The translations under genes and the position numbers were made by a program. Of a DNA stretch of 41,105 bases, positions 10,649-31,008 are shown piece after piece. The notes below the pieces were generated by a model. That model saw nothing but the letters and a program-made list of their open reading frames with translations, was not told the DNA's origin and searched no databases. Source of the stretch: Pseudomonadota bacterium (GTDB taxonomy: Bacteria > Desulfobacterota > Desulfuromonadia > Geobacterales > Pseudopelobacteraceae); contig JABBNX010000013.1 in NCBI GenBank assembly GCA_019352135.1, positions 1 to 41,105 on the forward strand, given 5' to 3'. Within the stretch, counting starts at the first letter, position 1. Each line of letters begins with the position of its first letter.

Positions 10649-11704
10649 TCAGGCAACAAAACATCCCGTAAGGGTATTGTCGTTTTCCAGCATTGAACGA
10701 AATTCATCGACGCAATCGCGTGACGAGAGAACCGTATAGAATCCCTTCTTAATGGTCACTGCCTGTCTGGTCGCTTCAATCCACTCCGAGGTGCTGAAAG
10801 GATCGCTTCTGATCACGTCCCAGAAGCCGGTCGTTTCGAACAGGGTGCGGATGGTGTCCGTCTGTCCTCCCTGGAGCCTGCTGACGATGTAGGTGGCAAC
10901 GCCGACCTGGAGCCCGTGCATCCGGGGGCGTGCAGATATTTGATCGAGCGCGTGTGATATGAGGTGCTCGCTGCCGCTGGCCGGACGTGATGAGTTGCAA
11001 ACCTCCATGGCAATGCCGTTCAGCATCAGTGCTGTTCCCAACAACCTGGCGCCTTCGTGATCCCTTATCGGCCGTGATATGAATTGGTAGACCGTCGCAT
11101 CGGACAGCAGGGCTGCAAAATCATTGACCGGTTCACCCGTGGCGTGGAAGGCAAGTTTCCAGTCTCGTACTGCGGTCAGTTTGGCCGCCAGATCGCCAAT
11201 TCCGGACAGCCAGAGTTGTTTCGGGGCGGCCAGGCAGGAATCGGTATCAATTATTACGCCGAACGGCATGGCCGCCGGAAGAGAACGCTTGCATCCTTCG
11301 ATGGTCAGACTGGCACCGGGACTGCAGAACCCGTCGTTGGAAAGTGATGTCGGTACCGCGATATTCGGCAACCGGCCCAGAAAGGCCACATATTTGGCAA
11401 CATCCAGCGCTCTTCCCCCACCAAGTCCGATGATGGCCGAGACATCGCCAGGCAAGGACACGAAAATGCTCTGTGCCTGTTCGAAGCTGGCTTCGGAGCA
11501 ATTGAACCACTGTTGAATCTGTACATCCGCAGCTGCCAGTGCTTTTTTTGCAGACGCCATAATGGCGGCCGGGATATCGCTACTGCTGATAACCGCTACA
11601 GTATTAAAACCGTACCGGCAGCAGTAGATGCCGAGTTTTTCAAGCGCCCCGCTCTTGATTCTTACCAGGCTCGGGATAGCGATGGTCGTGCGTGATTGTA
11701 TCAT
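10649..11704 (-). CDS. sn-glycerol-1-phosphate dehydrogenase family (EgsA/AraM type)
   Basis: Iron/zinc alcohol-dehydrogenase-fold enzyme of 351 residues. In characterised relatives it interconverts dihydroxyacetone phosphate and sn-glycerol 1-phosphate with NAD(P)H. Visible motifs are the nucleotide loop GLGGGRALDVAKYVA, the family segment PTSLSNDGFCSPGASL, and three metal ligands: the Asp in GIGDLAAK, the first-motif His in GSEHLISHALD, and the His in MHGLQVGV. The start at 11704 is fixed by a 4-base ATGA overlap with the upstream phosphatase gene, which implies translational coupling. It is common in archaea for ether lipids but less so in bacteria (B. subtilis AraM). No prenyl-glyceryl-phosphate synthase is in the window, so the fate of the product is open. 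Confidence 0.8.
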   Translation of the reverse strand: MIQSRTTIAIPSLVRIKSGALEKLGIYCCRYGFNTVAVISSSDIPAAIMASAKKALAAADVQIQQWFNCSEASFEQAQSIFVSLPGDVSAIIGLGGGRALDVAKYVAFLGRLPNIAVPTSLSNDGFCSPGASLTIEGCKRSLPAAMPFGVIIDTDSCLAAPKQLWLSGIGDLAAKLTAVRDWKLAFHATGEPVNDFAALLSDATVYQFISRPIRDHEGARLLGTALMLNGIAMEVCNSSRPASGSEHLISHALDQISARPRMHGLQVGVATYIVSRLQGGQTDTIRTLFETTGFWDVIRSDPFSTSEWIEATRQAVTIKKGFYTVLSSRDCVDEFRSMLENDNTLTGCFVA

Positions 11705-12357
11705 GCGCTTCCCCCGCATAAGCTGACCGGGATGTCGCACCATCTGTCGAAGTACACGAACGGCTCCCGGCGGCTTTCAAGTTCCTCCGCCAGCCAGCCC
11801 CGTGCAAAGCGGCGCTCTGGCGGTATCAACAGCGCCGGTGCCAGATCCGGGCGGCCGTCTCCGGCAAAAGCGGTATCAAAATCCTGATCAAGATAATGTT
11901 GTACTACGGCAGCCTTGTCGATTCCTGTTTCAGCGCTAAAAAATGGTGATTGACGCGGCGGTTTCATGAAAAGCCCCCTACCGGGGAAAAACTCGCCCGG
12001 ATTCGCGTGGATGTGAACCTTGATCCCGGTAGGGGCCAGCATCCGTTCGATATAAAAAGAGCATCCGGCCGAGGCGATTACCAGTGCCCAGCCGGTATGG
12101 TGCAGGTGTTCAAATCCCTCGACCAGGCAGCTTTCTACCTTCATCTCCGCCAGCATATTATCAAGTTCATGTTCATCGACCCGGAGTCCGGAAAATATTT
12201 CAGCTAGAGCATTGAAATGGCTTGCAAGGCCCTGCTCGTAGCGCTTCCACGGAGCAACCGCCCCGGGAGGCAGATGAGACAAGGCGACCATGAAAAAATC
12301 GCGTTCGGTCATGGTGCCGTCAAAGTCGCTGATCAGTATCTTATTCTTAGTGGTCAT
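11701..12357 (-). CDS. HAD-superfamily phosphatase, MtnX/SerB-like
   Basis: Haloacid-dehalogenase-fold phosphatase of about 218 residues. The four HAD motifs are present: I is DFDGTMTERD (nucleophile Asp and acid/base Asp), II is the Ser in VIASAGCSF, III is the Lys in GIDKAAVV, and IV is FAGDGRPDLAPA. Order and spacing fit the phosphoserine-phosphatase/MtnX branch. Two ATGs are adjacent (12360 and 12357); GGAG is better spaced for the second. It overlaps the glycerol-1-phosphate dehydrogenase by ATGA and follows the M20 gene by 42 bases. A plausible inference is hydrolysis of the phosphate ester made by its coupled partner, but the substrate is not known. Confidence 0.8.
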   Translation of the reverse strand: MTTKNKILISDFDGTMTERDFFMVALSHLPPGAVAPWKRYEQGLASHFNALAEIFSGLRVDEHELDNMLAEMKVESCLVEGFEHLHHTGWALVIASAGCSFYIERMLAPTGIKVHIHANPGEFFPGRGLFMKPPRQSPFFSAETGIDKAAVVQHYLDQDFDTAFAGDGRPDLAPALLIPPERRFARGWLAEELESRREPFVYFDRWCDIPVSLCGGSA

Positions 12358-14112: not shown

Positions 14113-15543
14113 CTATTTTTTTGATTTTGTTCTTCTTAAGCGATTATTAAGGGCTTGGCGCGTTATGCCGAGCATCCTGGCGGCGGTACCCTGATTGTTT
14201 TTCGCCAATTCAAGCGCCTTTTCGATAATGACGCTTTCGGCATATTTCAGTGTCGGTATTGACGAAAAGCTAATGCCATTGATCTCGCAACCGGGTGCAG
14301 CATTCCTCTGTTGCATTACAGCATTTGCCGGTTCTTGTTCGCGGGCAATAACCTTTTTCAGAAGCGCTGTAGAAAGCCTGGATGTCGTACTCCTGCTGAC
14401 AAAATCATAGATGATCGACTGAAGCTCTCGAATATTGCCGGGGAATTCATAGGTAACAAGAAAATCGACCAGTTCTTTGCGATATGAAAGTCTGCCCTTT
14501 CCCATGGCATTTGCCGCCTCCCTGATAAAATGGCTTAACAGAAGAGGGATATCTCCGGTCCGTTTTCGGAGTGGCGGAATCGTGACCTGATGGGTGCAGA
14601 GGCGGAAATAGAGGTCTTTGCGAAACTTTCCGTCGTTCATGCTTTGCCACAGAACCTTGTTGGTTGCCACTACCAGTCGCGCGTTGCTTTTTATCGGATT
14701 GTCAGAGCCAAGCGGGTAGTACTCGTTCTCCTGCAGCAGTCGCAGCAGCTTTATCTGCGAAAGCTCGTTCAGGTCTCCGATCTCGTCAAGAAAGATGGTT
14801 CCGTTGGCCGCCTTCATAATCAGTCCGTCCCGATCATTGAGTGCGCCGGTAAAGGCCCCTCGACGGTGTCCAAAGAGGGTATCGGAAAACATCTGATCAT
14901 CAAGACCGGCGATGTTGATGCTGACGAAGCCGCCTTTCAGGCCACTCAGCGTATGTACCGCCCGCGCCGCCAGTTCCTTGCCGACACCGGTTTCTCCGGA
15001 GATAAGCACCGGCTGCCGTGATTTTGCCACCACCTCGATATACGTCAGAATCGATAGCATCTCCCTGTCCTGGGTAATGATGGAAGGGATGAGCGGAGCC
15101 CGGGCAGCGATCTCTTCATCGGTCGCCTTGTCCAGCAACATTATATCTTCGTTGAGACTCTGCAGTTCGAGTGCCCTCTTCACGCCGGCAATAAAGCGAT
15201 TGATGGAAATCGGTTTGGTAAGATAGTCAACCGCTCCCGTTTTCATGCAATCGATGGCCGTTTCGATGTGACTTTCTGCAGTAACAACGATCACCGGCAC
15301 ATGCGGCTTCAACTCTGAAAACGCTTCCAGGAGGTCCCTGCCGTGGAGTTTGGGCATCCTCAGATCTATGATGACCAGAGCAACCTCCTCGCTCTTGAAA
15401 TTTTCCAGCGCCAGCAGGCTGTCGTTGAACGTAATCACCTTCTGGAACCCCTCGTGGCAAAGAAAAGAACTCAGCAGCGATAGCGCAGCCACCTCGTCGT
15501 CCACAAGCATAATCGGATAGGTACTGAAATCGTGGTGGTTCAT
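14113..15543 (-). CDS. NtrC-type sigma-54 response regulator (orphan)
   Basis: Three-domain activator, 476 residues. The receiver has IMLVDDE, phospho-acceptor Asp60 in VIIDLRMP, Thr in VVTAES and Lys110 in YLTKPIS, so it looks functional. The AAA+ domain has Walker A GETGVGKE, the sigma-54 loop GAFTGA, Walker B TIFLDEIGDL and a sensor segment GNIRELQS. The C-terminal Fis-type helix-turn-helix reads GTAARMLGITRQALNNRL. ATG 15543 has GGAG ten bases upstream. It shares the unusual AGLDDQMFSDTLFGH segment with the two regulators at 28128-31008. No kinase is adjacent. It is divergent from the aconitase gene, whose promoter region carries a sigma-54 site; control of that gene is inferred. Confidence 0.93.
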   Translation of the reverse strand: MNHHDFSTYPIMLVDDEVAALSLLSSFLCHEGFQKVITFNDSLLALENFKSEEVALVIIDLRMPKLHGRDLLEAFSELKPHVPVIVVTAESHIETAIDCMKTGAVDYLTKPISINRFIAGVKRALELQSLNEDIMLLDKATDEEIAARAPLIPSIITQDREMLSILTYIEVVAKSRQPVLISGETGVGKELAARAVHTLSGLKGGFVSINIAGLDDQMFSDTLFGHRRGAFTGALNDRDGLIMKAANGTIFLDEIGDLNELSQIKLLRLLQENEYYPLGSDNPIKSNARLVVATNKVLWQSMNDGKFRKDLYFRLCTHQVTIPPLRKRTGDIPLLLSHFIREAANAMGKGRLSYRKELVDFLVTYEFPGNIRELQSIIYDFVSRSTTSRLSTALLKKVIAREQEPANAVMQQRNAAPGCEINGISFSSIPTLKYAESVIIEKALELAKNNQGTAARMLGITRQALNNRLRRTKSKK

Positions 15544-15666
15544 GTCGGAAACTCCAATTTTACCTTTGATTGGATCATGGTCCATACGGGGAGAAGCGGC
15601 ATGTATTAGTGTAGCCACGTTTTTATAATAATCAAGCGGGTTCGCGACCAAATTTGCAATTATTGT

Positions 15667-15689
15667 TGCACCACAGGGTCCGTGTTGCA
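15667..15689. promoter_or_regulatory. inverted repeat, candidate enhancer site
   Basis: TGCACCAC and GTGTTGCA form an 8-bp dyad with one mismatch and a 7-base spacer. Its centre is about 62 bases upstream of the -24 element, a normal position for an NtrC-type enhancer-binding site. A further TTGCA lies a dozen bases upstream. Binding by the divergent regulator is inferred. Confidence 0.45.
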
Positions 15690-15739
15690 GCGGATTCGGT
15701 CTGATTACTACCGGTTCTATCGCTAACATGCCAAAGTAC

Positions 15740-15755
15740 CGGCACTATTTTTGCT
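15740..15755 (+). promoter_or_regulatory. sigma-54 (-24/-12) promoter for aconitase
   Basis: CGGCAC, five bases, then TTGCT. Compared with TGGCAC-N5-TTGC(A/T), only the first base differs, and the invariant GG and GC are at exact spacing. Transcription would start near 15767 and give a leader of about 130 bases before the aconitase ATG. Confidence 0.75.
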
Positions 15756-15897
15756 CCCCGCACACGCGAGTTGTCAGATTGTGCCGCAGCTCCTCTTGAT
15801 TTAGTGCGATGCGGGATTATACTTAAACTGTGCAGATGGTAGTCATTGAATATGTTAACCGCACAGTAAGATGTTTCACATACCACGGAGGTGTACA

Positions 15898-17832
15898 ATG
15901 CCAAAAAATCTGACGACAAAAATACTTGAAGCTCATCTGATTGAAGGTGCGCTGGTTCCGGAGACGGAGATTTCAATCCGGATTGACCATACCCTGCTTC
16001 AGGACGCCACCGGAACGATGGCGATGCTGGAATTTATCGCCATGGGGCTTCCGGAGGTGAAGGCCGCCTTGGCCGCACAGTATATTGATCATAATCTGTT
16101 GCAGACCGATTACAAAAATGCCGATGATCACGCTTTTTTGACATCTGCTGCGATGAAATTCGGCATGTATCTCTCCAAACCGGGAAACGGCGTTTCCCAC
16201 CAGGTGCATCTGGAACGTTTCGGGGTCCCCGGCATCATACTTCTGGGGGCGGACTCCCACTCGCCGACAGCGGCAGGAATATCAGTTCTGGCAATTGGCG
16301 CCGGTGGCCTGGATGTCGCGTTGGCCATGGCCGGACATCCTTTCAACCTCCCCTGTCCGAAGGTTATGGGGGTCAAGCTTACCGGAAAGCTTCCTGACTG
16401 GGTTTCGGGTAAGGATGTCATTCTTGAGATGTTACGACGACATACGGTCAGAGGGGGCGTCGGTGCGGTGATTGAGTATTATGGGCCGGGGGTGGCAACC
16501 CTGTCAGCAACGGACCGGGCTACGATTGGCAATATGGGGGCCGAATTGGGAGCCACTTCATCCATTTTCCCTTCCGATGAACGGACGCGCCAGTTTCTGG
16601 AATCACAGGGGCGCGGCGATGACTGGCGGCCATTGTCGGCAGACGAAGGGGCAACGTACGATGAATATGATGAAATCGATCTCTCGACATTGGAACCGTT
16701 GATTGCCTGTCCGTCGTCGCCCGACAAGGTGGTGCCGGTCCGGGAAGTAGCAGGGACTAAAGTCGATCAGGTTATCGTTGGCAGTTCGGTGAACTCTTCA
16801 TACCGCGATCTGATGACCGTCTGCCGGATAATGGAGGGAAACCGAGTCGCATCAGGGGTACATTTTCATGTCAATCCCGGAAGCCGCCAAGTGTTGGAAA
16901 ATATTGCCCAGGATGGTGGCGTTATGATGTTGCTGATGGCGGGAATCAGCATTCACCAGTCAGGTTGTCTCGGGTGCATCGGTATGGGACAGGCACCGGG
17001 AACAGACCAGGTCAGTCTTCGCACCTTTCCGCGCAATTTTCCCGGTCGAAGCGGCACCACGGGCGACAAAGTGTACCTCTGTTCCCCGGAGACAGCCGCC
17101 GCATCGGGTATTTATGGCGTCATCACTGATCCGCGCATGTTGGGAACGACCAGATTGTATCCGGCTGTACAGAATCCCGGGAAATATCTTCTGGACGACT
17201 CAGGTATTATTTTTCCGCTGGCAGACCGCTCAACGGTCGAAATCAAAACCGGCCCAAATATCCTGCCGTTTCCGGATTTTGCGGCTCTTCCTGACACTCT
17301 GCATGCTGGCGTCGTCATTGTGCTTGGTGACAATATTACAACCGATCATATTATGCCTGCCGGAAATAAAGTGTTGCCGTTACGCAGTAATATTCCTGCG
17401 ATCAGTGAGCATGTGCTCGAACAGGTGGACGCGGAATTCCCTGCGCGCGCATTGGCTACCGGAGATGGCATTATTGTCGCCGGCGAGAATTATGGGCAGG
17501 GGTCTTCTCGCGAACATGCTGCCATTGCTCCCCGCTATCTGGGAATTCGCGCCAAGATAGTCAAAAGTTTTGCCCGCATACACAAGGCCAATCTGGTTAA
17601 TTTCGGCATTGTACCGCTGGTTTTCAAAAATCCGGCAGATTTTGATCTTTTTAAGCAGGGTGATCAGGTTGTGATTCCCGACATCCGGCGCCTTGTCAAA
17701 AGCGGAGTCAGTGAAATACCGGTGTTCGTTAATGGCCGGGAGGTTGCCACAATACTGGAGATATCAGACCGCCAGCGTCAGGAGCTTTTAGCCGGTGGAA
17801 CGCTGAATTTAGTGAAACAGAATCAACATTGA
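15898..17832 (+). CDS. aconitate hydratase, Aquifex-type
   Basis: Citrate/isocitrate isomerase of the aconitase superfamily, 644 residues, shorter than AcnA (about 890) and like the putative Aquifex-type class. Conserved parts are GADSHSPTAAGISVLAIGAGG, the two-Cys loop SGCLGCIGMG, RNFPGRSG, the swivel-domain start GDNITTDHIMPAG, and GENYGQGSSREHAAIAPRYLG with SFARIHKANLVNFGI. The position of the first cluster Cys of canonical aconitases (GSCTN) reads GSSVNSS, so only two of the three usual Fe-S Cys are in their expected motifs. ATG 15898 has ACGGAGGTGTACA upstream. A sigma-54 promoter precedes it. A 2-methylcitrate or related hydro-lyase role cannot be excluded. Confidence 0.85.
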   Translation: MPKNLTTKILEAHLIEGALVPETEISIRIDHTLLQDATGTMAMLEFIAMGLPEVKAALAAQYIDHNLLQTDYKNADDHAFLTSAAMKFGMYLSKPGNGVSHQVHLERFGVPGIILLGADSHSPTAAGISVLAIGAGGLDVALAMAGHPFNLPCPKVMGVKLTGKLPDWVSGKDVILEMLRRHTVRGGVGAVIEYYGPGVATLSATDRATIGNMGAELGATSSIFPSDERTRQFLESQGRGDDWRPLSADEGATYDEYDEIDLSTLEPLIACPSSPDKVVPVREVAGTKVDQVIVGSSVNSSYRDLMTVCRIMEGNRVASGVHFHVNPGSRQVLENIAQDGGVMMLLMAGISIHQSGCLGCIGMGQAPGTDQVSLRTFPRNFPGRSGTTGDKVYLCSPETAAASGIYGVITDPRMLGTTRLYPAVQNPGKYLLDDSGIIFPLADRSTVEIKTGPNILPFPDFAALPDTLHAGVVIVLGDNITTDHIMPAGNKVLPLRSNIPAISEHVLEQVDAEFPARALATGDGIIVAGENYGQGSSREHAAIAPRYLGIRAKIVKSFARIHKANLVNFGIVPLVFKNPADFDLFKQGDQVVIPDIRRLVKSGVSEIPVFVNGREVATILEISDRQRQELLAGGTLNLVKQNQH

Positions 17833-17995
17833 GGCAACATAAAGGTGATGCTGGCCGTGCTGCACAGGTCGCTTTCACTGTGATGTAAACCAGCAACAAA
17901 TGTGACACCGGGCAACAAACGTAACTTTGTGCGTCATCAGTCAGTTACTGGCGTATTCTCCATGCTTCCCACCAGAATATCTGCAAAATCTGTTT

Positions 17996-18028
17996 CAGCT
18001 GGCTCTGATCAAAGATCAGAGCCAGCTG
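17996..18028. repeat. perfect 15-bp inverted repeat, AAA spacer
   Basis: CAGCTGGCTCTGATC, AAA, then its exact reverse complement. There is no T run on either strand after it, so a plain intrinsic terminator is unlikely. It lies about 60 bases upstream of a weak -24/-12-like site, so it may be an operator or enhancer dyad; it could equally be an mRNA 3' stabilising hairpin. Confidence 0.7.
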
Positions 18029-18069
18029 TTATAACATGCCGATTTAACACGATAATTATTTTTATAAGT

Positions 18070-18085
18070 TGGCTCGGTTTCTGCC
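18070..18085 (+). promoter_or_regulatory. weak sigma-54-like site before the PPOX gene
   Basis: TGGCTC, five bases, CTGCC. The GG and GC pairs are at the right spacing, but three other positions differ from consensus. It lies about 50 bases before the PPOX gene start. Low-confidence pattern match. Confidence 0.25.
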
Positions 18086-18135: not shown

Positions 18136-18567
18136 GTGCGCGTTATGGTCGATATGATCACTGAACCGGTAAGAAGTTTGATGGGAAAGACCACTCTTGT
18201 TTTTGTTGCCACCGCAGATTCATTCGGTCAGCCGCACATGGCTATCGGGGAACAGGTTACCGTCTCCGGAGACTCGGTGCTGATTTTTGAAAACTGGTTT
18301 TGTCCGTCAACATTGCAGAATATCGAGTGCAATTTCCGCATAGCTATTGTGGTGGTTTTGCCTGACTCCGGAAAGGGCTACCAGATGCTCGGATCGGTCA
18401 TTAAGAGTACAGAAACGGCGATTCATGATGAGTATAAACAACCTGTCAACACACTGGAAACGCCCCAGATACTGACCAGATTCGCCGTTAAAATAGATCG
18501 GGTGCTTGAGTTTACGAGCGGGGTGCATTCGGATGTACCCATTGCTGGGGTGACCTTGCACTATTAA
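18136..18567 (+). CDS. pyridoxamine 5'-phosphate oxidase (PPOX)-fold family protein
   Basis: Small flavin-type split-barrel protein, about 143 residues. TTLVFVATADSFGQPHMAIGEQVTV is the typical opening strand pair of PPOX-like proteins, followed by SVLIFENWF and FRIAIVVVLPDSGKGYQMLGSV. The family binds FMN, heme or F420 and includes many uncharacterised reductases, so the reaction cannot be named. The start is uncertain: GTG 18136 has AAGGAA at good spacing, ATG 18145 is nine bases on, and an upstream GTG at 18115 is less likely. It is preceded by a perfect palindrome and followed by 251 bases before the cytochrome gene. Confidence 0.72.
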   Translation: MRVMVDMITEPVRSLMGKTTLVFVATADSFGQPHMAIGEQVTVSGDSVLIFENWFCPSTLQNIECNFRIAIVVVLPDSGKGYQMLGSVIKSTETAIHDEYKQPVNTLETPQILTRFAVKIDRVLEFTSGVHSDVPIAGVTLHY

Positions 18568-18818
18568 TTGCAGAATTATCTGGTTGAACAGACCGATTGA
18601 GCCGTCACAAAAACTTCTCTGAGAAGGCGTCGGAAGTGTTTTATGGCGCCCATGACAAGCGGATATAAACTATTTTGACGGAGCACTGTTGCAAAACCAT
18701 GTATCTCTGTAATAATGGAAAAGAAACTTTTGTCAGCATGGTGTCGTAAAATATTGTCGCATCAACGATGCACTAAAGGCAGTGAGCTGCCGGTAACTAA
18801 ACTACAAGGAGAAATACA

Positions 18819-19184
18819 ATGAATTTCAATCGAACTGCTCTCAGAACCATGTCATCAACCGGAACTTCAACGATCGCAATTTCGGCAGCTGCATTTTTGG
18901 CTGTCCTCTTGCTGTGGCAGACGCCACTTCATGCTGCCGGCAAAAGCGGCGAAGCCGGATTCAAGGCAAATTGTGCTGCATGCCATGCCGATGGCGGCAA
19001 TATCATCAAGGCCGACAAGACTCTTTCGCGCAAGGATCTTCATAAAAACGGCATCAAGACGGCAAATGATATCGTTAAACTTATGCGCCATCCCGGGCCA
19101 GGGATGAGCACCTTTGACAAGAAAATGGTGTCAGACAAGGATGCAAAGGCTATTGCAGAGTATGTCCTTAAGGCATTCAAGTAG
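18819..19184 (+). CDS. monoheme cytochrome c (class I, c6-like)
   Basis: Exported electron carrier, 121 residues. A long N-terminal signal segment (AISAAAFLAVLLLW, cleavage probably after LHAA) is followed by GFKANCAACH: the heme-binding CxxCH at residues 52-56. Met96 in PGPGMSTFD is the likely distal ligand, and KDAKAIAEYVLKAFK is the C-terminal helix that packs on the heme. CAAGGAGAAATACA precedes the ATG. It is 75 bases upstream of a Tat-exported superoxide-reductase-like gene on the same strand and is probably co-transcribed with it. I infer that it donates electrons to that protein in the periplasm. Confidence 0.92.
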   Translation: MNFNRTALRTMSSTGTSTIAISAAAFLAVLLLWQTPLHAAGKSGEAGFKANCAACHADGGNIIKADKTLSRKDLHKNGIKTANDIVKLMRHPGPGMSTFDKKMVSDKDAKAIAEYVLKAFK

Positions 19185-19259
19185 TTTCACTAAACATATT
19201 TTACAATTCTCTGCAGGAGTACCTGCAACCTATTCAATTTGTTATGTGAGGAGCACCTC

Positions 19260-19739
19260 ATGGACAGACGGAGTTTTTTGACTGCGACCGTTATCGGTTC
19301 ACTTACCGCTGGCATCAACTCGTTAGCCGCCGCATCTGAGCGTTATTTTCCCGTCAAGGTGGATCAGTCCCTGTTCGATTCGATAAACCGGGTTAAGGAC
19401 TCCGGGAAAAAAACACCCTTGGAAATGTCACATGTACCGGTAATTTCCGCGCCGGCTTCGGTTAAGGCCGGAGAGCTTTTTATGGTAGAAGTTTCGGTTG
19501 GTGAGAAGATCCACGTTATGGGACCGGCTCACTGGATTGAATATATCGAACTCTCCATCGGAAACGAACCGGCAGGAAGGGTAGACTTCCAGCCCCGGGG
19601 TTTTATGAAGCCAAAGGTTTCATTTACTGTCGCGCTTCCCAAGGATGTTGCTCCGAAAGGTAAAGTTACGCTTGTTGTGCGGCAACGGTGTAATCTGCAT
19701 GGCTTATGGGAATCAAATTTGGATATTACCGTAGTATGA
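19260..19739 (+). CDS. Tat-exported superoxide reductase-like protein (class II SOR fold)
   Basis: Protein of 159 residues with a twin-arginine signal (DRRSFLTAT, hydrophobic region to about residue 25) and a neelaredoxin/desulfoferrodoxin domain. All five ligands of the SOR iron centre can be placed: His58 (SHVPVI), His85 (KIHVM), His91 (AHWIEYIEL), Cys144 and His147 (CNLHGLW). The Glu-Lys pair that precedes the first His in classical SORs (EKH) is Met-Ser here, so kinetics or substrate may differ. There is no N-terminal desulforedoxin domain. ATG 19260 with GTGAGGAG is preferred over a TTG at 19239. The tandem cytochrome c gene suggests reduction of superoxide, or another small oxidant, in the periplasm. 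Confidence 0.85.
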   Translation: MDRRSFLTATVIGSLTAGINSLAAASERYFPVKVDQSLFDSINRVKDSGKKTPLEMSHVPVISAPASVKAGELFMVEVSVGEKIHVMGPAHWIEYIELSIGNEPAGRVDFQPRGFMKPKVSFTVALPKDVAPKGKVTLVVRQRCNLHGLWESNLDITVV

Positions 19740-20115: not shown

Positions 20116-20195
20116 ATTGCTGAAGTATCCGGTGGTTGGATCATTACGTGATGGTTACCGGCAAAGTTATATCAAAAGATGGGAGTGAGTGCGTT

Positions 20196-20630
20196 ATGCC
20201 AGCATATGTTGTTACCTGCAGTTCTTGCGGCACGGCAAACAGGGTCCCGGCCGAAAAGGAAGGCAAAAGCGGCCGTTGCGGCAATTGCCGCACGGAGTTG
20301 CCGCTTATGTACTATCGGCCTCAACAACTCACGGATCGCTCCTACGACACATTTATCAGCAGGTACAGTGGCCCGGTGCTGGCCGAGTTATGGGCGCCAT
20401 GGTGCCCGCACTGCAAGTCGTTTGAACCTGCAGTGCGCAAGGTGGCAGAATTACTGGCAGGCACTGCAGCAGTTGTACAGATAAATACCCAGGAAAATCC
20501 GGGATTGGCAGGTCGTTTCGGTGTTCGAGGCATTCCGGCGCTCTTGTTGATCAGGAATGGGAACGTTATCGATCAGCTTTCCGGTGCCCAGAGCAGCGAA
20601 GCGGTAATCGCCTGGTTCCGTCGCCATTGA
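20196..20630 (+). CDS. trxC: thioredoxin, TrxC-like with N-terminal zinc ribbon
   Basis: Thiol-disulfide oxidoreductase, 144 residues. The N-terminus carries two CxxC pairs (TCSSCGTANRVP and GRCGNC), the zinc-binding ribbon of thioredoxin 2. The thioredoxin fold follows, with active site WAPWCPHCK, cis-Pro in VRGIPALLLI and the C-terminal helix. The dipeptide between the cysteines is Pro-His, as in DsbA, rather than Gly-Pro of normal thioredoxins, which should make it more oxidising. ATG 20196 is chosen because TrxC proteins start just before the first CxxC. GGGAG is upstream; longer in-frame starts exist. It has no signal peptide. Confidence 0.85.
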   Translation: MPAYVVTCSSCGTANRVPAEKEGKSGRCGNCRTELPLMYYRPQQLTDRSYDTFISRYSGPVLAELWAPWCPHCKSFEPAVRKVAELLAGTAAVVQINTQENPGLAGRFGVRGIPALLLIRNGNVIDQLSGAQSSEAVIAWFRRH

Positions 20631-24137: not shown

Positions 24138-25526
24138 TTATGCCGGTTCCTGTTCCAAAAATTTTGCAATGTTATGTTTTTTTACCAGATCATAAAGGGT
24201 CGGCCTGCTGATGCCAAGTACTTCGGCGGTCTTGGCCATGTTGTTCTTCTGATTTTCTATCGCTGCAATCACCATTTCTCGCTCAACCATATCACGGGCG
24301 TCTCTCAGAGACAGGTTGGCAAAGGAATGGATTCCTTCTTTGGCAGTTTTAAGGGAAAAATCGAGCGCCTCGGGTTCAATGATGGAACTATCTGACATAA
24401 TGACCGCCCGCTGTACCTTGTTCTCCAGTTCCCTCACATTACCGGGCCATTCGTATGATTCAAGAAGTTTTACGGAGTCAGGGCTGAACCGATGAATTTT
24501 TTTTCCGAATTGATGGCTGCAGCGGCGAAGAAAAAAGTTCGCCAGAAGCGTGATGTCTTCTCCGCGATCACGCAGTGGCGGCAATTTAATGTGGATGACT
24601 GAAATCCGATAGTAGAGATCTTCGCGAAAAGCGCCCGTTTCAGTTTCCTTGACGATATTCCTGTTGGTCGCGGCAATGATGCGGGCATCTACGGCGATAT
24701 CTTCTCTTCCTCCAACGCGCTGGATAGTCTTTTCCTGCAGAAAACGAAGCAGTTTGACCTGAAGATTGAGTGGCAGTTCGCCAATTTCGTCAAGGAAAAG
24801 GGTTCCTTTATGGGCGTATTCCACTTTTCCCTGAACACGCGTATTAGCCCCGCTGAAAGCTCCTTTTTCGTAGCCGAACAACTCGGCTTCCAGCAGATTT
24901 TCAGGAATGGCTCCACAATTTATGGCAATGAAACTCTTCGATTTTCTCGGGTTGAGTTCGTGAATCGCCCTGGCGACCAACTCCTTTCCGGTACCGCTTT
25001 CACCGGTAATCAACACTGCTACTTCTGATGAAGCAACCTTGCGGATAGAAGAAAAAACCCCCAACATGCGGGGCGATGTGCCGATGATCCCTCCCGTGGT
25101 GAAGCCATGCAGGTCGATATTGCTCTGAAGACGTGAATTTTCATTTTCAATTGCCGCCAGGTGAAAGGCTCTTTTGAGGATCACTTTCAGTTCCGGCAGA
25201 TCAAAGGGTTTGCAGTAATAATCGTACGCACCGCATTGCACTGCCCGTAAAGCATTTTCACGCTCATCATTGCCGGTAATCATGATCACTTTTGCGGAAG
25301 GTGTTTTTTGAAGAATTTCCTCCAGGCACTGAAATCCTTCTTCGCAACCCGCTTCGTCAGGCGGCAGACCGAGGTCGAGAGTTATTACTTTCGGGGTATG
25401 CTTTTTTATAAGCGGGAGCGCTTCCATGCGGTCACAGGCTACAAAGACTTCGTATTCCTTTGCGAGCCCCCAGCGAAGCTGATTGCTTATTTCCTGATTG
25501 TCCTCAATTATGACGAGCTTTTCCAT
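24138..25526 (-). CDS. prsR: PrsR, sigma-54 response regulator of the PEP-CTERM system
   Basis: NtrC-type activator, 462 residues, paired with PrsK. Receiver: IIEDNQEI, acceptor Asp in ITLDLGLPPDEAG, Thr in MITGND and Lys in YYCKPFD. AAA+ domain: GESGTGKE (Walker A), TLFLDEIGEL (Walker B). The sigma-54 contact loop is GAFSGA instead of the usual GAFTGA. Fis-type helix-turn-helix at the end: KTAEVLGISRPTLYDLVKK. The insert after the phosphosite (PPDEAGCEEGFQ) is typical of the PrsR family. ATG 25526 with AAAGG upstream is chosen over GTG 25532. It lies 12 bases after prsK in the same direction. In its family it activates genes for exopolysaccharide and PEP-CTERM proteins. Confidence 0.93.
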   Translation of the reverse strand: MEKLVIIEDNQEISNQLRWGLAKEYEVFVACDRMEALPLIKKHTPKVITLDLGLPPDEAGCEEGFQCLEEILQKTPSAKVIMITGNDERENALRAVQCGAYDYYCKPFDLPELKVILKRAFHLAAIENENSRLQSNIDLHGFTTGGIIGTSPRMLGVFSSIRKVASSEVAVLITGESGTGKELVARAIHELNPRKSKSFIAINCGAIPENLLEAELFGYEKGAFSGANTRVQGKVEYAHKGTLFLDEIGELPLNLQVKLLRFLQEKTIQRVGGREDIAVDARIIAATNRNIVKETETGAFREDLYYRISVIHIKLPPLRDRGEDITLLANFFLRRCSHQFGKKIHRFSPDSVKLLESYEWPGNVRELENKVQRAVIMSDSSIIEPEALDFSLKTAKEGIHSFANLSLRDARDMVEREMVIAAIENQKNNMAKTAEVLGISRPTLYDLVKKHNIAKFLEQEPA

Positions 25527-25538
25527 AGACACCTTTTG

Positions 25539-27599
25539 CTAGGCGGTTCCTACGTTGATTTTTGGTAACCAGACGGTGAATTCTGAGCCGTGGTTGATGG
25601 TGCTCACAACTTCAATCCTGCCGCCGTGCGCCTCAATAATCTGCCTGCTTTGGTAGAGTCCGATTCCCATTCCCTGTTTCTTTGTACTGGTGAAGGGTCT
25701 AAACAGCACATATTGCATGAATGCCGCAGGAATACCGCGTCCCTCATCTCTTACGCGAATAAACGGGCTTTCGCTTTCACCTACTTCCACCTTCACCGGC
25801 GTATTCCCATCTGAAGCCTCAACAGCATTCAACATAAGATTGAGGGCTACTTTTTGCAGTTCTTCCCTGTCTACCTCTGCTATTACATGCTTTCCTGTTA
25901 CATCCAGAGCCGTTCCATTTACTAAGGCTGCGGTTTCACGAGCCATTACCAGTAGATCAACAGGAGTCAGTTGTAGTGTGCTTTTCTCCGGCAGATGCTT
26001 AAGGCGCAAGATCAGAGCATTCATCTTGGTGACGATATTCCTGAGGGATGTGAGCAAGTCGCTTTGAAAAGCAGGGAGGTCGATGTGCTCCTGTGCATTT
26101 TCCAGCATAAGTGAAAGAGCGGAAATTAGATTTTTCAAGTCGTGCATTACAAAGGTAGATACCTTGCCAATCGCTGCCAACTCTCGTGAACAGGATAGCT
26201 GATCCGAAAGCCTTAAATTCAAAAGTGCCGATGAAGCCTGTTTTGCGAGTGTTCTCATCAAGTCGAAGTCTTCGTGGTTATAAATTTCTTCATTGCTGTG
26301 AGGTCTCCCCAATATTATGAACCCATCAACAGCTTCGTTCATGAAAAGCGGGATAATGAAGCAGGCGTCTAATTTATTTAAAAACGCTTTCTGGCAGTAG
26401 TTTTCATGTACCGTAATGTCATTCCGTAAATCAACAATCCATCGGCTTCTGGTCAAAGATTCAATAACAGGGTCGTCGATGCCGAAAGTCACCTCGCCAC
26501 TCTCCATCGAAATGCCGGCAGCCTGTTGATATTTGTCATGCTCCAGGCTTATTGTGAACAGAGCTCCCGTTCCCATCCCGAACGTGTCACAGAATTCTGA
26601 AACAATCGAATCCAGCAGGTTCTCACTGGTCTGTGATGAAGAAAGTCGATCAGTGAACTGAATCCATTGGTTACGGTAGTCATATTTGTTCTCGTAGAAG
26701 TTTTTGTGAATGAACACCCTGACTCTGCGTTTGATTGTTTCCGATAGGAGAATGATGAACAGACCAAGGCCGAGAAAAAAAACAGTAGTGAAGATCATTG
26801 CTCGCTGGAATCCGTCGCCGAAGTATTTCATTCCTTCACCGACGAGTCCGAGGCAGAGGATATATAAGCCAACGGCGAGGAGCACAACTGACTTGCAGGC
26901 AATTTGCTGGGAAACGTGAACATTTACGACGCCCCCTCGTTTCAGGCGTGAATAGGCGATCATCGCTATTCCGACAATCAGCACGATACTGCGCATCGGT
27001 ACCAGTTGAATGTTGAGCGTGCGAAAAAGGAGGCTCTGACTGTAGTATATGATCATGATTGCAAGAATAGCCCCTGATCCGAGTAACTCGAACTTGATCT
27101 TCCAGCGTGAGGTCCTTGCTGTATGCACAAGAGTTTGTTCCAGTTGAATCAGACATATGATCAGATAGATGAGTACCAGAAGATAAAATATGAAGCCGTT
27201 ATTGCCGAGAAAGAGGATTTTTTCCGTGGCAAAATCAGGTGAATACACAAACGAACGGATTGGCAGCATGAATGCAAATATGGCTATGAGTGGTGAGACA
27301 GCCAGCAGGATCCGGAACGGGATTGATGTTGTTTGGTAGCAGTCTTGTCGCGCATATGTCAGGGAGAACCAGAGCCAGACAGGGGGCAGGAAGGCTTCGC
27401 ACATAAGAGAAAACTTCTTCCAGAAATATATTTGTTCCGGATTTTGCAATATCAGCAGGTCGAAAAATTCCAGGAATGCAGACAGCAAGACTGCAATAGC
27501 AAGAGGGATCGGCAGGGATGGTGTGTCCTTCCGTAGTGTAAAATACAGTGGAAAGAGTACTGCAAATGATATTGCAGTGATGGAAAGTGCCATTATCAT
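25539..27599 (-). CDS. prsK: PrsK, membrane histidine kinase of the PEP-CTERM system
   Basis: Sensor kinase of about 686 residues. The N-terminal half has roughly eight to nine membrane helices (for example SITAISFAVLFPLYF, IPLAIAVLLSAFLEFF, VVLLAVGLYILCLGLVG). A GAF domain follows (NLLDSIVSEFCDTFGMGTGALF onward in the middle). The kinase core has a PrsK-type H box, FVMHDLKNLISALS, an N box (NLMLNAVEASDG) and G boxes (DEGRGIP, GMGIGLYQSRQIIEAHGG). ATG 27599 is chosen; a longer in-frame start at 27671 is possible. Immediately upstream of prsR, so they form a two-component pair. No exosortase, PEP-CTERM target or EPS gene is in this window. Confidence 0.93.
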   Translation of the reverse strand: MIMALSITAISFAVLFPLYFTLRKDTPSLPIPLAIAVLLSAFLEFFDLLILQNPEQIYFWKKFSLMCEAFLPPVWLWFSLTYARQDCYQTTSIPFRILLAVSPLIAIFAFMLPIRSFVYSPDFATEKILFLGNNGFIFYLLVLIYLIICLIQLEQTLVHTARTSRWKIKFELLGSGAILAIMIIYYSQSLLFRTLNIQLVPMRSIVLIVGIAMIAYSRLKRGGVVNVHVSQQIACKSVVLLAVGLYILCLGLVGEGMKYFGDGFQRAMIFTTVFFLGLGLFIILLSETIKRRVRVFIHKNFYENKYDYRNQWIQFTDRLSSSQTSENLLDSIVSEFCDTFGMGTGALFTISLEHDKYQQAAGISMESGEVTFGIDDPVIESLTRSRWIVDLRNDITVHENYCQKAFLNKLDACFIIPLFMNEAVDGFIILGRPHSNEEIYNHEDFDLMRTLAKQASSALLNLRLSDQLSCSRELAAIGKVSTFVMHDLKNLISALSLMLENAQEHIDLPAFQSDLLTSLRNIVTKMNALILRLKHLPEKSTLQLTPVDLLVMARETAALVNGTALDVTGKHVIAEVDREELQKVALNLMLNAVEASDGNTPVKVEVGESESPFIRVRDEGRGIPAAFMQYVLFRPFTSTKKQGMGIGLYQSRQIIEAHGGRIEVVSTINHGSEFTVWLPKINVGTA

Positions 27600-28127
27600 C
27601 GTATATCCATCCCTTTTCAACGAGGCAGTTTCTTTATGTCTTTTTCCATAATTGCCATGGTTGCGCTGCATTTCTACAATGCAAATCTGGTTGACGCTGA
27701 GACCACTTACATTCGCTTGTTGATGCGATGTCCTCCCATATGGTTATCACATACTGTGCCATGTGAGGTTTGTAAAAATATTTAATAATAACGGCATATT
27801 ATTGAAAGAATGACAGAATCGTTACCAACGAAAAGATGTTACGTTAGAAATCAGGGAAGTTGGTGAATGGTGGGGGACAATGACTGAAAAACGTTATTAG
27901 TGACGATTGTTAATAAAAACAGCAGTTGTTACTATTGGAGCCATGGCGATATCGACACCCATGTGAGTAAGAGTAAAAAAATAGACGCATGCAAACTTGA
28001 CAAGCGAAACAAATGCGATAAAAGGGAATAGTTATAAGGACTTTTCAGGGATCATCATTGCATGTTGATACGCTTGCTTGAAAAACACCTGGGTACAACA
28101 TGGAAATGATAATAAGGACGATGGATT
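27600..28127. other. divergent intergenic region prsK / regulator
   Basis: A 528-base gap, AT-rich relative to its neighbours. It must hold the promoters of prsK (minus) and of the tandem regulators (plus). A TTGACA lies at 27997-28002 with only poor -10 candidates, and a TTATTA/TAATAA dyad spans 27894-27916. No gene or terminator is convincing. Confidence 0.5.
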
Positions 28128-29552
28128 ATGACAGTTGAAGTGCCTGGAGTCGTAAATACGGTCTTGCTGGTCGGTGATGATGCAGAACCGTTGGAACTGA
28201 CCCGGTCCATACTTCTGGATGCTGGAATAGGCCCGGTTCTCACCCTTACTGACAGCCGTGCCATCCTACCGTTTCTTGAACAGAATTGTGTTTCCCTAGT
28301 TATTTTTGAAATGACCCATACTGTGGATAGAGCTGACCTTTTATCAAGAATCTGCAGTGATTATTCTCATCTCCCGGTTATTGTGGAAACGGTATCTTCC
28401 GATGTAGAAATAGCTGTCAACTGCATGAAGTTCGGAGCTGTTGACTATATGGTCAGGCCGGTTGAGCCTGCCCGTCTGGTCCAGGCAGTTGAAAAGGTAC
28501 TAAATTCAAGCCGATTACAGCAGGAATCGTTGTCCCTGAAAGAATATCTACTCAACGACCGCCTTGAACATCCAGAGGCGTTTACAGAAATAAAGACAAC
28601 CTGCAGAAAGATGCGTTCGATCTTTCAATATACCGAGGTTGTCGCCTGCTCGCCTCAAGCGGTGCTGATTACGGGAGAAACCGGTGTTGGTAAAGAGTTG
28701 TTTGCCCGTGCGATTCACCGGATCAGTAGAGTAAGGGGGCAGTTTGTCAGCATTAATGTTGCCGGTCTTGATGACGCCATGTTTTCCGATACGCTCTTCG
28801 GGCATAAGAAGGGCGCTTTTACCGGTGCAGATCAATGCCGTGATGGATTGGTCTGCAAGGCTGCAATGGGCACACTGTTTCTGGACGAAATTGGAGACTT
28901 GAATGAATTGTCCCAGGTTAAGCTTTTGCGGCTACTGCAAGAACGGGAATATTACCCGGTTGGCGCCGATCTGGTGAAAACCTGTTCTGCACGGATTGTT
29001 CTGGCGACAAATGTAAATTTGCAGGAACGTATCAAGGAGGGGCACTTTCGGCGGGATCTTTATTACCGGCTTTGCACCCATCAAATACACATTCCTGCAC
29101 TGCGCGAGCGACGGGAGGATATCCCGCTTCTGCTTGACAGCTTCGTCGAAGTGGCCGCACGGCACTTTGGGAGAAGTGTTCCTGTCGTCTCCCCTGAACT
29201 CATCAAAGCACTTGCCGAGTATGATTTTCCCGGCAACGTCAGGGAGTTGCAGGCAAAAGTCAGCGATGCCGTAGCCCGCCATGAAGAAGGCCTCCTGACA
29301 TGTGATGATTTTTCAGGTATTTCCACCGCGGCATCGGGGCCCTCTCGCGCCCCTTCTGCCACGCCAGTTGTCGCCACTGCAGGGATCTACAGCCTCTTTG
29401 GCCGTCTGCCCACGTTTCGTGAGATTGAAGATTATCTGATAGTGGAGGCATTGAAGCTTTCGGAGGGTAACTACGCGGCCGCTGCTGCAATATTGGGGGT
29501 CACGCGCCAAACCATAAGTAAGCGTTTAAAATCTATCGAATCTGTCTCTTGA
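28128..29552 (+). CDS. NtrC-type sigma-54 activator with degenerate receiver
   Basis: Protein of 474 residues with receiver, AAA+ and Fis domains. In the receiver the acceptor Asp is Glu61 (LVIFEMTH, against LDL in its sister) and the conserved Lys is Arg110 (YMVRPVE), so phosphorylation by the normal route is unlikely. The AAA+ domain is intact: GETGVGKE, AGLDDAMFSDTLFGHKKGAFTGA (with the sigma-54 loop GAFTGA), TLFLDEIGDL. The helix-turn-helix is AAAAILGVTRQTISKRL. It has AAGGAC ahead of the ATG. It is 37 bases upstream of a close paralogue with a normal receiver. It may act constitutively or as a heteromer with that sister. Confidence 0.92.
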   Translation: MTVEVPGVVNTVLLVGDDAEPLELTRSILLDAGIGPVLTLTDSRAILPFLEQNCVSLVIFEMTHTVDRADLLSRICSDYSHLPVIVETVSSDVEIAVNCMKFGAVDYMVRPVEPARLVQAVEKVLNSSRLQQESLSLKEYLLNDRLEHPEAFTEIKTTCRKMRSIFQYTEVVACSPQAVLITGETGVGKELFARAIHRISRVRGQFVSINVAGLDDAMFSDTLFGHKKGAFTGADQCRDGLVCKAAMGTLFLDEIGDLNELSQVKLLRLLQEREYYPVGADLVKTCSARIVLATNVNLQERIKEGHFRRDLYYRLCTHQIHIPALRERREDIPLLLDSFVEVAARHFGRSVPVVSPELIKALAEYDFPGNVRELQAKVSDAVARHEEGLLTCDDFSGISTAASGPSRAPSATPVVATAGIYSLFGRLPTFREIEDYLIVEALKLSEGNYAAAAAILGVTRQTISKRLKSIESVS

Positions 29553-29589
29553 CGATAGTTGTACGCCATCAAGGAGACGAAAGGACAAT

Positions 29590-31008
29590 ATGATTTCAAA
29601 ACTCAATTTGCAGTTGCCGTTGTTATTGATAGACGATGATCGCGTAGTACTTGACATACATGTTACCGCTCTGGAGAGTGAAGGAGTCAAAAATGTCCTG
29701 ACCCTCACCGACAGCAGGAAGGCCGTTCAGTTTCTTGAAGCTCATCCTGTCTCAGTCATCGTTCTTGACCTGATGATGCCTCATGTATCCGGGTTGGAAC
29801 TTCTCCCTGTTCTGATTCGTAATTTTCCGCACATCCCTGTTGTCGTTATGACTTCATCTGATGATATTGAGACGGCGGTAAGCTGCATAAAAGCAGGTGC
29901 TGTTGATTATCTCACCAAGCCGGTCGAGGTTGAGCGCCTGTTGCTGAGTGTCGTGAATGCGCTCCATATTAACGAGCTGTCTCTGGAAAATCGCAGCTTA
30001 CGGGAATATCTGCTTAATGACCGTTTGGAACATCCTGCTGCATTTGATGCTATTATTACGACCAGCAAAAAAATGCGGGCTATTTTTCAGTATATTGAAG
30101 TTATCGCTAAATCAGACCAGCCAATATTGATTACTGGTGAAACCGGTGTCGGTAAAGAGTTGATTGCTCAAGCGATAGGAACATTGAGCGGCAGAAAAGG
30201 AGCTTTTGTTACGGTCAATGCTGCTGGGCTTGATGATAATATGTTTTCAGATACCTTGTTTGGCCATAAAAAAGGTGCCTTTACCGGTGCGGATCAGCCT
30301 CGTGACGGCCTTATTTCCGCAGCAGCCGGTGGCACCTTGTTTCTTGATGAGATCGGTGATTTGAATGAAACATCCCAAATCAAACTGTTGCGGCTTATCC
30401 AGGAACAGGAATTTTATCCTGTGGGATCGGATGTTCTGAAAAAAACCGATGCCCGACTGATCGTAGCGACCAATAAGGATCTTTCCAGCCTCATTGCCTC
30501 CAACAAATTTCGCAAGGATCTCTACTACAGGCTTTGTGCTCATCATATTCAGGTTCCTCCATTGAGAGAACGTCGCGAAGATGTTCCGGCCCTGTTGGAT
30601 TATTTTCTCGAAAAAGCGTCAAAATCACTCAATAAACCCAAGCCAGTCCCTTCACGGGAAGTTACGGCGCTTCTCTCTACCTATCATTTCGAAGGAAATG
30701 TCCGCGAACTGTATGCCATGATTTCTGATGCCGTTGCACGACACGCTTCTGGTTTGTTGACGCTCGACTGCTTTGTCGGTTTGACCGACCAAGAGCATAG
30801 CCTTTCAAATGCGGCACTTCTGGTGCCGAGTAAGGAGCTGGATGCGGCTTTGTATGCTTTCTTTGGCCGTTTCCCGACTATAAAGGAGACGGAAGATTAT
30901 CTGACATCATCCGCTATGAACCTGACCAACGGTAATCAGAGATCTGCGGCACTCTTACTCGGCATAGCCCGACAAACACTCAGTAAGCGTTTGGGTGTTC
31001 CTGATTAG
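29590..31008 (+). CDS. NtrC-type sigma-54 response regulator, intact receiver
   Basis: Protein of 472 residues, sister of the preceding gene over its full length (shared LTLTDSR, EYLLNDRLEHP and AGLDD-MFSDTLFGHKKGAFTGADQ segments). The receiver is complete: LLIDDDR, Asp60 in IVLDLMMP, Thr in VMTSSDD, Lys110 in YLTKPVE. The AAA+ core has GETGVGKE, GAFTGA and TLFLDEIGDL; the C-terminus has SAALLLGIARQTLSKRLG. GAAAGGACAAT precedes the ATG. No kinase is adjacent, but the hybrid kinase at 33490 is close. It lies 309 bases upstream of glmS, which it might control; this is inference. Confidence 0.93.
   Translation: MISKLNLQLPLLLIDDDRVVLDIHVTALESEGVKNVLTLTDSRKAVQFLEAHPVSVIVLDLMMPHVSGLELLPVLIRNFPHIPVVVMTSSDDIETAVSCIKAGAVDYLTKPVEVERLLLSVVNALHINELSLENRSLREYLLNDRLEHPAAFDAIITTSKKMRAIFQYIEVIAKSDQPILITGETGVGKELIAQAIGTLSGRKGAFVTVNAAGLDDNMFSDTLFGHKKGAFTGADQPRDGLISAAAGGTLFLDEIGDLNETSQIKLLRLIQEQEFYPVGSDVLKKTDARLIVATNKDLSSLIASNKFRKDLYYRLCAHHIQVPPLRERREDVPALLDYFLEKASKSLNKPKPVPSREVTALLSTYHFEGNVRELYAMISDAVARHASGLLTLDCFVGLTDQEHSLSNAALLVPSKELDAALYAFFGRFPTIKETEDYLTSSAMNLTNGNQRSAALLLGIARQTLSKRLGVPD

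Follow-up and report, generated by a model that had tools for sequence, protein, structure and literature searches.

Sigma-54 is best known for nitrogen, motility and carbon genes, and its activators of the NtrC family (NtrC, ZraR, AtoC and GlrR types) have a receiver, an AAA+ domain with the GAFTGA loop, a Fis-type helix-turn-helix (HTH) domain and dyads upstream of −24/−12 promoters. Here we describe, in a 41,105-nucleotide stretch of contig JABBNX010000013.1 (assembly GCA_019352135.1, a member of the Geobacterales; the whole stretch is called the window below), an orphan response regulator that shares all of these features (14113–15543, minus strand), the divergent gene acn for an aconitase homologue (15898–17829, plus strand), and, between the two, a −24/−12-like element, CGGCACTATTTTTGCT (15740–15755, plus strand), which a preliminary description had read as a sigma-54 promoter of acn. 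On balance, we favor the view that the regulator heads a sigma-54 regulon for oxygen or redox stress defense in relatives of Geobacter, in which the enhancer is a pair of dyads at a constant distance, a PNPOx-like gene is a recurrent member, and genes such as acn would have been wired in and out through gain and loss of the module. A link between sigma-54 and stress is in itself not new, because, in the available parts of the two sources, over-expressed RpoN is reported to have raised stress-response genes in Geobacter sulfurreducens (PMC2725144) and sigma-54 promoters to be over-represented, for some classes, in front of peroxiredoxin and universal stress protein groups (PMC12316311). The RpoN regulon of G. 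sulfurreducens resembles our case in coming from related bacteria and in the use of sigma-54 with activators, but the main text of that paper, as available, does not mention aconitase or aconitate, oxidative stress, rubrerythrin, superoxide, ferritin or TGCAAC (PMC2725144). The sigma-54 survey is organized by gene groups and, in its accessible portion, names no comparable regulator or dyad (PMC12316311). PerR-type peroxide regulons of delta-proteobacteria share targets of the rubrerythrin and peroxidase type, but in the part of the source at hand they depend on Fur-family repressors and other palindromes, with no sigma-54 activator (PMC545781). No description of this paired-dyad regulon was found among the matches listed from the open-licence literature (titles and abstract starts).

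The upstream regions of the regulator were aligned for 10 genus members, our own genome included. Measured from the regulator start, a dyad lies at −126 to −133 in 8/10 of them, whatever the divergent gene; in 7/10 another dyad, matching 8 to 11 of 12 positions on a strict scale, lies at −216 to −221, and a −24/−12 promoter directed away from the regulator is found 289–297 bp from the start codon, also in 7/10. The module consists of two dyads of the form TGCAAY-N4-RTTGCA, spaced by about 88 bp, with the −24/−12 promoter pointing away about 89 bp further on. In our genome the distal dyad, TGCAATTATTGTTGCA (TGCAAT-TATT-GTTGCA, 15655–15670, 6-bp arms with one imperfect position), is a predicted upstream activator site and probably an autoregulatory one. 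The gene on the far side of the module varies: it is ferritin-like in genomes G011, G022 and G025 (by resemblance to locus L088, the 90-residue piece alone giving no Pfam match), an ADP-ribosylglycohydrolase in G031 (Pfam) and G006 (resemblance), a secreted protein without a name in G015, and acn in G034; the sites therefore go with the regulator and not with acn. The same module stands before genes resembling the ferritin-like ones at L116 and L117, in two genomes of another genus. Across 57 module rows (the row of 15740–15755 included, the PNPOx module of the window left out as below threshold), the two dyads were 86–91 bp apart in 43 and the dyad-to-promoter distance was 86–92 bp in 39, the ranges searched being 61–110 and 40–139 bp; these figures are partly circular, since some loci had been picked through spacing patterns, while L081–L098 were chosen by single dyads only. 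A related G/C-centered dyad, GCAACC-N2-GGTTGC, occurs before strong −24/−12 sites at L113, G011, G022 and G025, and these sites perhaps mark the regulon of another activator.

The co-occurrence of dyad pairs and regulator was counted in 141 genomes of the order, 20 with a regulator ortholog (E-value up to 1e-160) and 121 without. Paired dyads were present in 16 of the 20 vs. 3 of the 121 (Fisher p = 9e-15), the pair in one of these three, G079, being a tandem repeat; when the pairs before the regulator itself were left out, the counts were 11/20 vs. 3/121 (p = 7e-09), and the reversed control pattern gave 0 in all 141 genomes. At the genus level, 11 of 39 genomes carry the paired pattern, namely 9 of the 10 with the regulator and 2 of the 29 without it. 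The pattern had been designed on members of the genus, and g12 (G113, G114, G116, G117), another genus, stood outside this design. The strict single dyad was found 21 times in G015 vs. 1 for the reversed control. A dyad-to-promoter pattern occurred in 19/39 genomes, the regulator being absent from 10 of these, with the reversed control sometimes above 0, and no count given here rests on it.

Concerning the regulator itself, the preliminary description had recognized an NtrC-type activator with receiver and GAFTGA loop, which is borne out by Pfam (PF00072, PF00158, PF25601 and PF02954, covering receiver, sigma-54-interacting AAA+ and Fis-type HTH) and by the presence of the loop, the sigma-54 contact, which varies to GAYTGA or GSYTGA in the orthologs. 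The DD, D, T and K motifs of the receiver can be read from the sequence, and we take them to have their usual roles as the residues of a phosphorylatable domain. The HTH core RQALNNRL is identical across 19 aligned orthologs and is not found in two paralogues within the window. The best NCBIfam match was AtoC (325.5 bits vs. a cut-off of 714), and the protein stayed under the cut-off in all of the best 25 of 108 families. It differs from the NtrC-family activators in having a dyad of its own, arranged in pairs with a distance of about 88 bp, and targets rich in redox and stress functions.

Twenty of 24 located target proteins were run against Pfam, and 17 of the 20 gave a match. The families are rubrerythrin (2), ferritin, redoxin/AhpC, HtrA-type protease, universal stress protein, cytochrome P460, NADH:flavin oxidoreductase, pirin, short-chain dehydrogenase, rhodanese with YceI, multicopper-oxidase-like, cytochrome c7, FMN reductase (WrbA-like by eye), amylase-type (trehalose synthesis by eye), molybdopterin oxidoreductase (formate dehydrogenase by eye) and ADP-ribosylglycohydrolase. 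The commonest recurring target away from the regulator, among those looked at, is the small PNPOx-like gene, and its copy at 18154–18567 (plus strand, start chosen through ortholog resemblance) is predicted to be the clear target of the regulator in the window. Its product matches PF01243 with an E-value of 3.7e-05 and 24.5 bits, under the Pfam cut-off of 28.1. Upstream lie a distal dyad AGCAACAAATGTGACA (17892–17907, 9/12), a proximal dyad TGCAAAATCTGTTTCA (17982–17997, 10/12) 90 bp from it, and a −24/−12 promoter TTGGCTCGGTTTCTGCC (18069–18085, plus strand) 87 bp from the proximal dyad. The same arrangement precedes the same gene in G020, G027, G015, G113, G114, G116 and G117 (8 genomes aligned, our own included; module-bearing orthologs only), and no module such as that at 17892–18085 appeared in 60 shuffles of the window. 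The other exact dyad of our genome lies on contig C103 before an OmpA-family gene, with a second dyad and a −24/−12 promoter at the usual spacing. When the promoter DNA of the formate dehydrogenase target of G020 was sought in our genome, the match was limited to the outer part of that stretch, and this target is not claimed here. Downstream of the PNPOx-like gene, a desulfoferrodoxin-type (superoxide reductase) gene (19260–19739) and a thioredoxin gene (20136–20630) were noticed, forming a small redox-defense island. No canonical module was found upstream of the desulfoferrodoxin gene (in 18567–19260) or of the thioredoxin gene, because the −24/−12-like site at 18897 and the 11/12 dyad at 19142 near the former stand in the wrong order.

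On this view the regulator would activate a redox-stress regulon through sigma-54 and would also regulate its own gene. It would bind at both dyads, about 88 bp from each other, and be brought by DNA looping, perhaps aided by integration host factor (IHF), to the −24/−12 promoter about 89 bp downstream; the target set suggests oxygen or redox stress. IHF-like sites, judged against what we take to be the IHF consensus, were spotted by eye in a few modules and left uncounted. We infer binding, activation, signal and promoter use from the sites, spacing, co-occurrence and alignment obtained by sequence comparison, and regard the whole explanation, with the PNPOx-like target and the decay of the acn promoter considered below, as fairly probable. 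If true, a redox-stress regulon dedicated to sigma-54 control would make it easier to understand how iron-reducing anaerobes survive oxygen, and the proposal is directly testable, since each site is predicted to the base.

The gene beside the regulator is aconitase-type, in agreement with the preliminary description, as both aconitate hydratase family scores exceed their cut-offs (NF005558/TIGR01342 type, 939.7 bits vs. 612 and 859.6 vs. 719.15). In mitochondrial aconitase the [4Fe-4S] ligands are Cys358, Cys421 and Cys424, according to the available part of the source (PMC8184944). Residue 296 of the acn product, aligned to Cys358, is a serine (GSSVNSS or GSSANS) in 40/40 covering loci of the order and the CxxC pair that holds the other two ligand cysteines is kept in 40/40, so that the homologue lacks the full three-cysteine set of [4Fe-4S] aconitases. 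Aconitases of the AcnA type, truncated at a contig end, and of the AcnB type are encoded on other contigs of our genome, and the acn homologue may not be the main aconitase of the citric acid cycle. The suggestion that sigma-54 control would tie carbon flow to a signal is weakened, because these other aconitases are present and many of the other targets are redox or stress proteins.

A search of 58 genomes gave 43 with this acn type (at least 71% identity, partial copies counted, table read by hand), and 42 of these loci were examined, G054 with a broken partial copy being left out. Upstream DNA for the neighbor check reached about 1.5 kb at most loci and 693 to 881 bases at L014, L011 and L012. 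The divergent regulator adjoins acn in 4/42 loci (our own, G020, G027 and G034), and a 42-residue remnant of it is left in G028; the contigs end inside the regulator gene in G020 and G027 and inside acn in G034. In a tree of 24 acn proteins, our own groups with G020 and G027 (100/98), then with G028 (96/87); G034 is close, its row being 37% filled. A fixed partnership of acn and regulator was considered and rejected, as G006 has the ortholog but lacks this acn, and in G015, G031, G011 and G022 the two genes lie on separate contigs. In G025 (genome 66% complete) a regulator ortholog is present and no acn was found.

In G034 the order is dyad, second dyad TGTAATATTTATTACA, IHF-like site TAACATATTGATTT, promoter TGGCATAGACAATGCT and acn, and sigma-54 control of the acn homologue is likely there, because the full module points at acn. 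G028 has kept the promoter and lost most of the regulator; at L064:6019-6144 of this genome the regulator is seen cut down to its C-terminal HTH part, adjoining an intact acn, and the promoter slot remains. In our genome the ancestral slot, TGGCATAGACAATGCT in G034, is degenerate in a three-way alignment and reads CTGTGCAGATGGTAGTC (15828–15844, plus strand), with scores of 10.2 at 15828 and 10.5 at 15829 and both cores lost, vs. 19.5 in G034 (hand-set scale, maximum 23.2). The first dyad is intact and the second slot holds the 15740–15755 element; in G020 and G027 the dyads are lost too. A scan gave a candidate sigma-70-like acn promoter, TTGATT-N16-TATACT (15796–15823, plus strand), common to our genome, G020 and G027, whose TTGATT overlaps the IHF-like site, where G034 has its TAACATATTGATTT. 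In an ancestor the module beside the regulator would have driven acn, as apparently it still does in G034, while in our genome, G020 and G027 the sigma-54 promoter of acn would have decayed and acn would most likely be read from the sigma-70-like promoter. This loss and switch are favored because the slot is degenerate, the second dyad eroded, the dyads of the sister genomes lost and TTGATT-N16-TATACT shared. In our genome acn seems largely unlinked from the regulator, and the locus offers a readable case of promoter loss among close relatives, its state being intact in G034, regulator-deleted in G028 and decayed in our own genome, G020 and G027.

The 15740–15755 element itself would be the remains of the proximal dyad, resembling a −24/−12 promoter because the half-site that it retains, TTGCT, can be taken for a −12 box. 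The reported CGGCAC-N5-TTGCT is indeed there, with two mismatches to TGGCACGNNNNTTGCW and one to the shorter TGGCAC-N5-TTGCW; its GG and GC cores are present, the spacing is correct, and its score of 21.0 equals or exceeds that of most module promoters. In the three-way alignment it matches the second dyad of G034 and G028 and not their −24/−12 promoters, which score 19.5 each and lie elsewhere, closer to acn; the match of this slot to the dyad is 7/12 in our genome, 10/12 in G034 and 8/12 in G028. The 8-bp dyad announced 62 bases upstream was not found in that form, the actual one being that with 6-bp arms at 15655–15670, which ends 69 bp before the element. From start to start the distance is 84 bp, outside the peak of 86–94 bp (41/57 rows). 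Conservation of the −24/−12 element before orthologous aconitases, which the preliminary description had itself proposed as the refuting comparison, was absent: no site above 19.5 occurs in the 400 bp upstream of any of the 41 other acn loci (weaker ones, of 17 or more, in 16/41), and the element is at the same place in 0/12 other aligned loci. The proposed sigma-54 control of the aconitase is supported in part, by the neighboring protein of the sigma-54 activator type with its own dyads and by the module aimed at acn in G034, and falls short as regards the unconserved element.

Several observations pull the other way. The p values of the co-occurrence are too strong, the genomes being related; no exact dyad pair was found in the regulator-bearing G034, G115, G042 and G087, nor any module within 420 bp upstream of the regulators of G042 and G052, and in G022, G006, G031, G025 and G011 the sole matched pair is the one before the regulator itself. 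A dyad on its own marks the regulon poorly, because it occurs 2 times vs. 1 for the control in our genome and up to 6 times in genomes lacking the regulator (G018, G035, G003). The redox-stress theme is our interpretation of the targets, with enrichment judged by eye, and the sigma-70-like site at 15796–15823 scores only 9/12. Finally, a site as good as the 15740–15755 element (21 or more) was reached in 0.59% of 20,000 shuffles of the 354-bp intergenic stretch on this strand (chance 0.0059), and 0/60 window shuffles combined an exact dyad and a site of that quality at a distance of 60–111 bp, so that the element may be selected. Since chance is unlikely to have put so good a match 84 bp from an intact upstream dyad, a working sigma-54 promoter born in the proximal dyad slot, with the former distal dyad now serving as proximal activator site for acn, is possible, although we doubt it: the element is missing in the sister genomes G020 and G027, an equally good site is found at none of the 41 other acn loci, only a single dyad is available, a spacing of 83–85 bp occurs in no other row (84 bp departing from the 89-bp peak by about half a turn of the helix), and the sigma-70-like site is common to our genome and its sisters.

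We find it unlikely that the element is a plain chance match without any link to the dyads. Its lack of conservation and the overall count (2 sites scoring 21 or more in the window vs. 0.93 expected from the 60 shuffles) would suit such an origin, but the match is rare in the intergenic stretch itself, and in the alignment with G034 and G028 both the position of the element and its TTGCT half agree with the slot of the proximal dyad. The dyads might also serve another regulator, for instance a metal-responsive one, with the activator adjoining them by chance, given that a similar palindrome, ATGCAACNNNGTTGCAT, is reported upstream of Desulfovibrio zinc-uptake genes in the available part of PMC545781. 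That site has a spacer of 3 bp and not 4, the paired dyads go together with the activator ortholog and keep a constant distance to the −24/−12 promoters that follow them, and no zinc-uptake family appeared among the 20 targets run against Pfam, which makes this reading very improbable next to the paired-dyad regulon favored here.

Regarding the regulator gene, the long open reading frame starts at 15729, which is probably not the real gene start; the start at 15543 is preceded by GGAGTTT and agrees with the ortholog starts. A putative sigma-70-like promoter of the regulator, TTGATT-N16-TACACT, lies at 15608–15635 (minus strand), and a TTGATW or TTGCTW box is present at the matching place in the 10 aligned genus orthologs, with a −10 part that varies. 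In G042 the regulator sits between a desulfoferrodoxin-like gene and a gene resembling WrbA. Elsewhere in the window, two tandem orphan receiver-AAA-Fis regulators (28128–31008), the second 46% identical to the regulator at 14113–15543, adjoin a PrsK/PrsR pair (24138–27671). A glycerol-1-phosphate dehydrogenase-like gene (10649–11743; 219.6 bits, cut-off 413) is located beside a HAD phosphatase gene.

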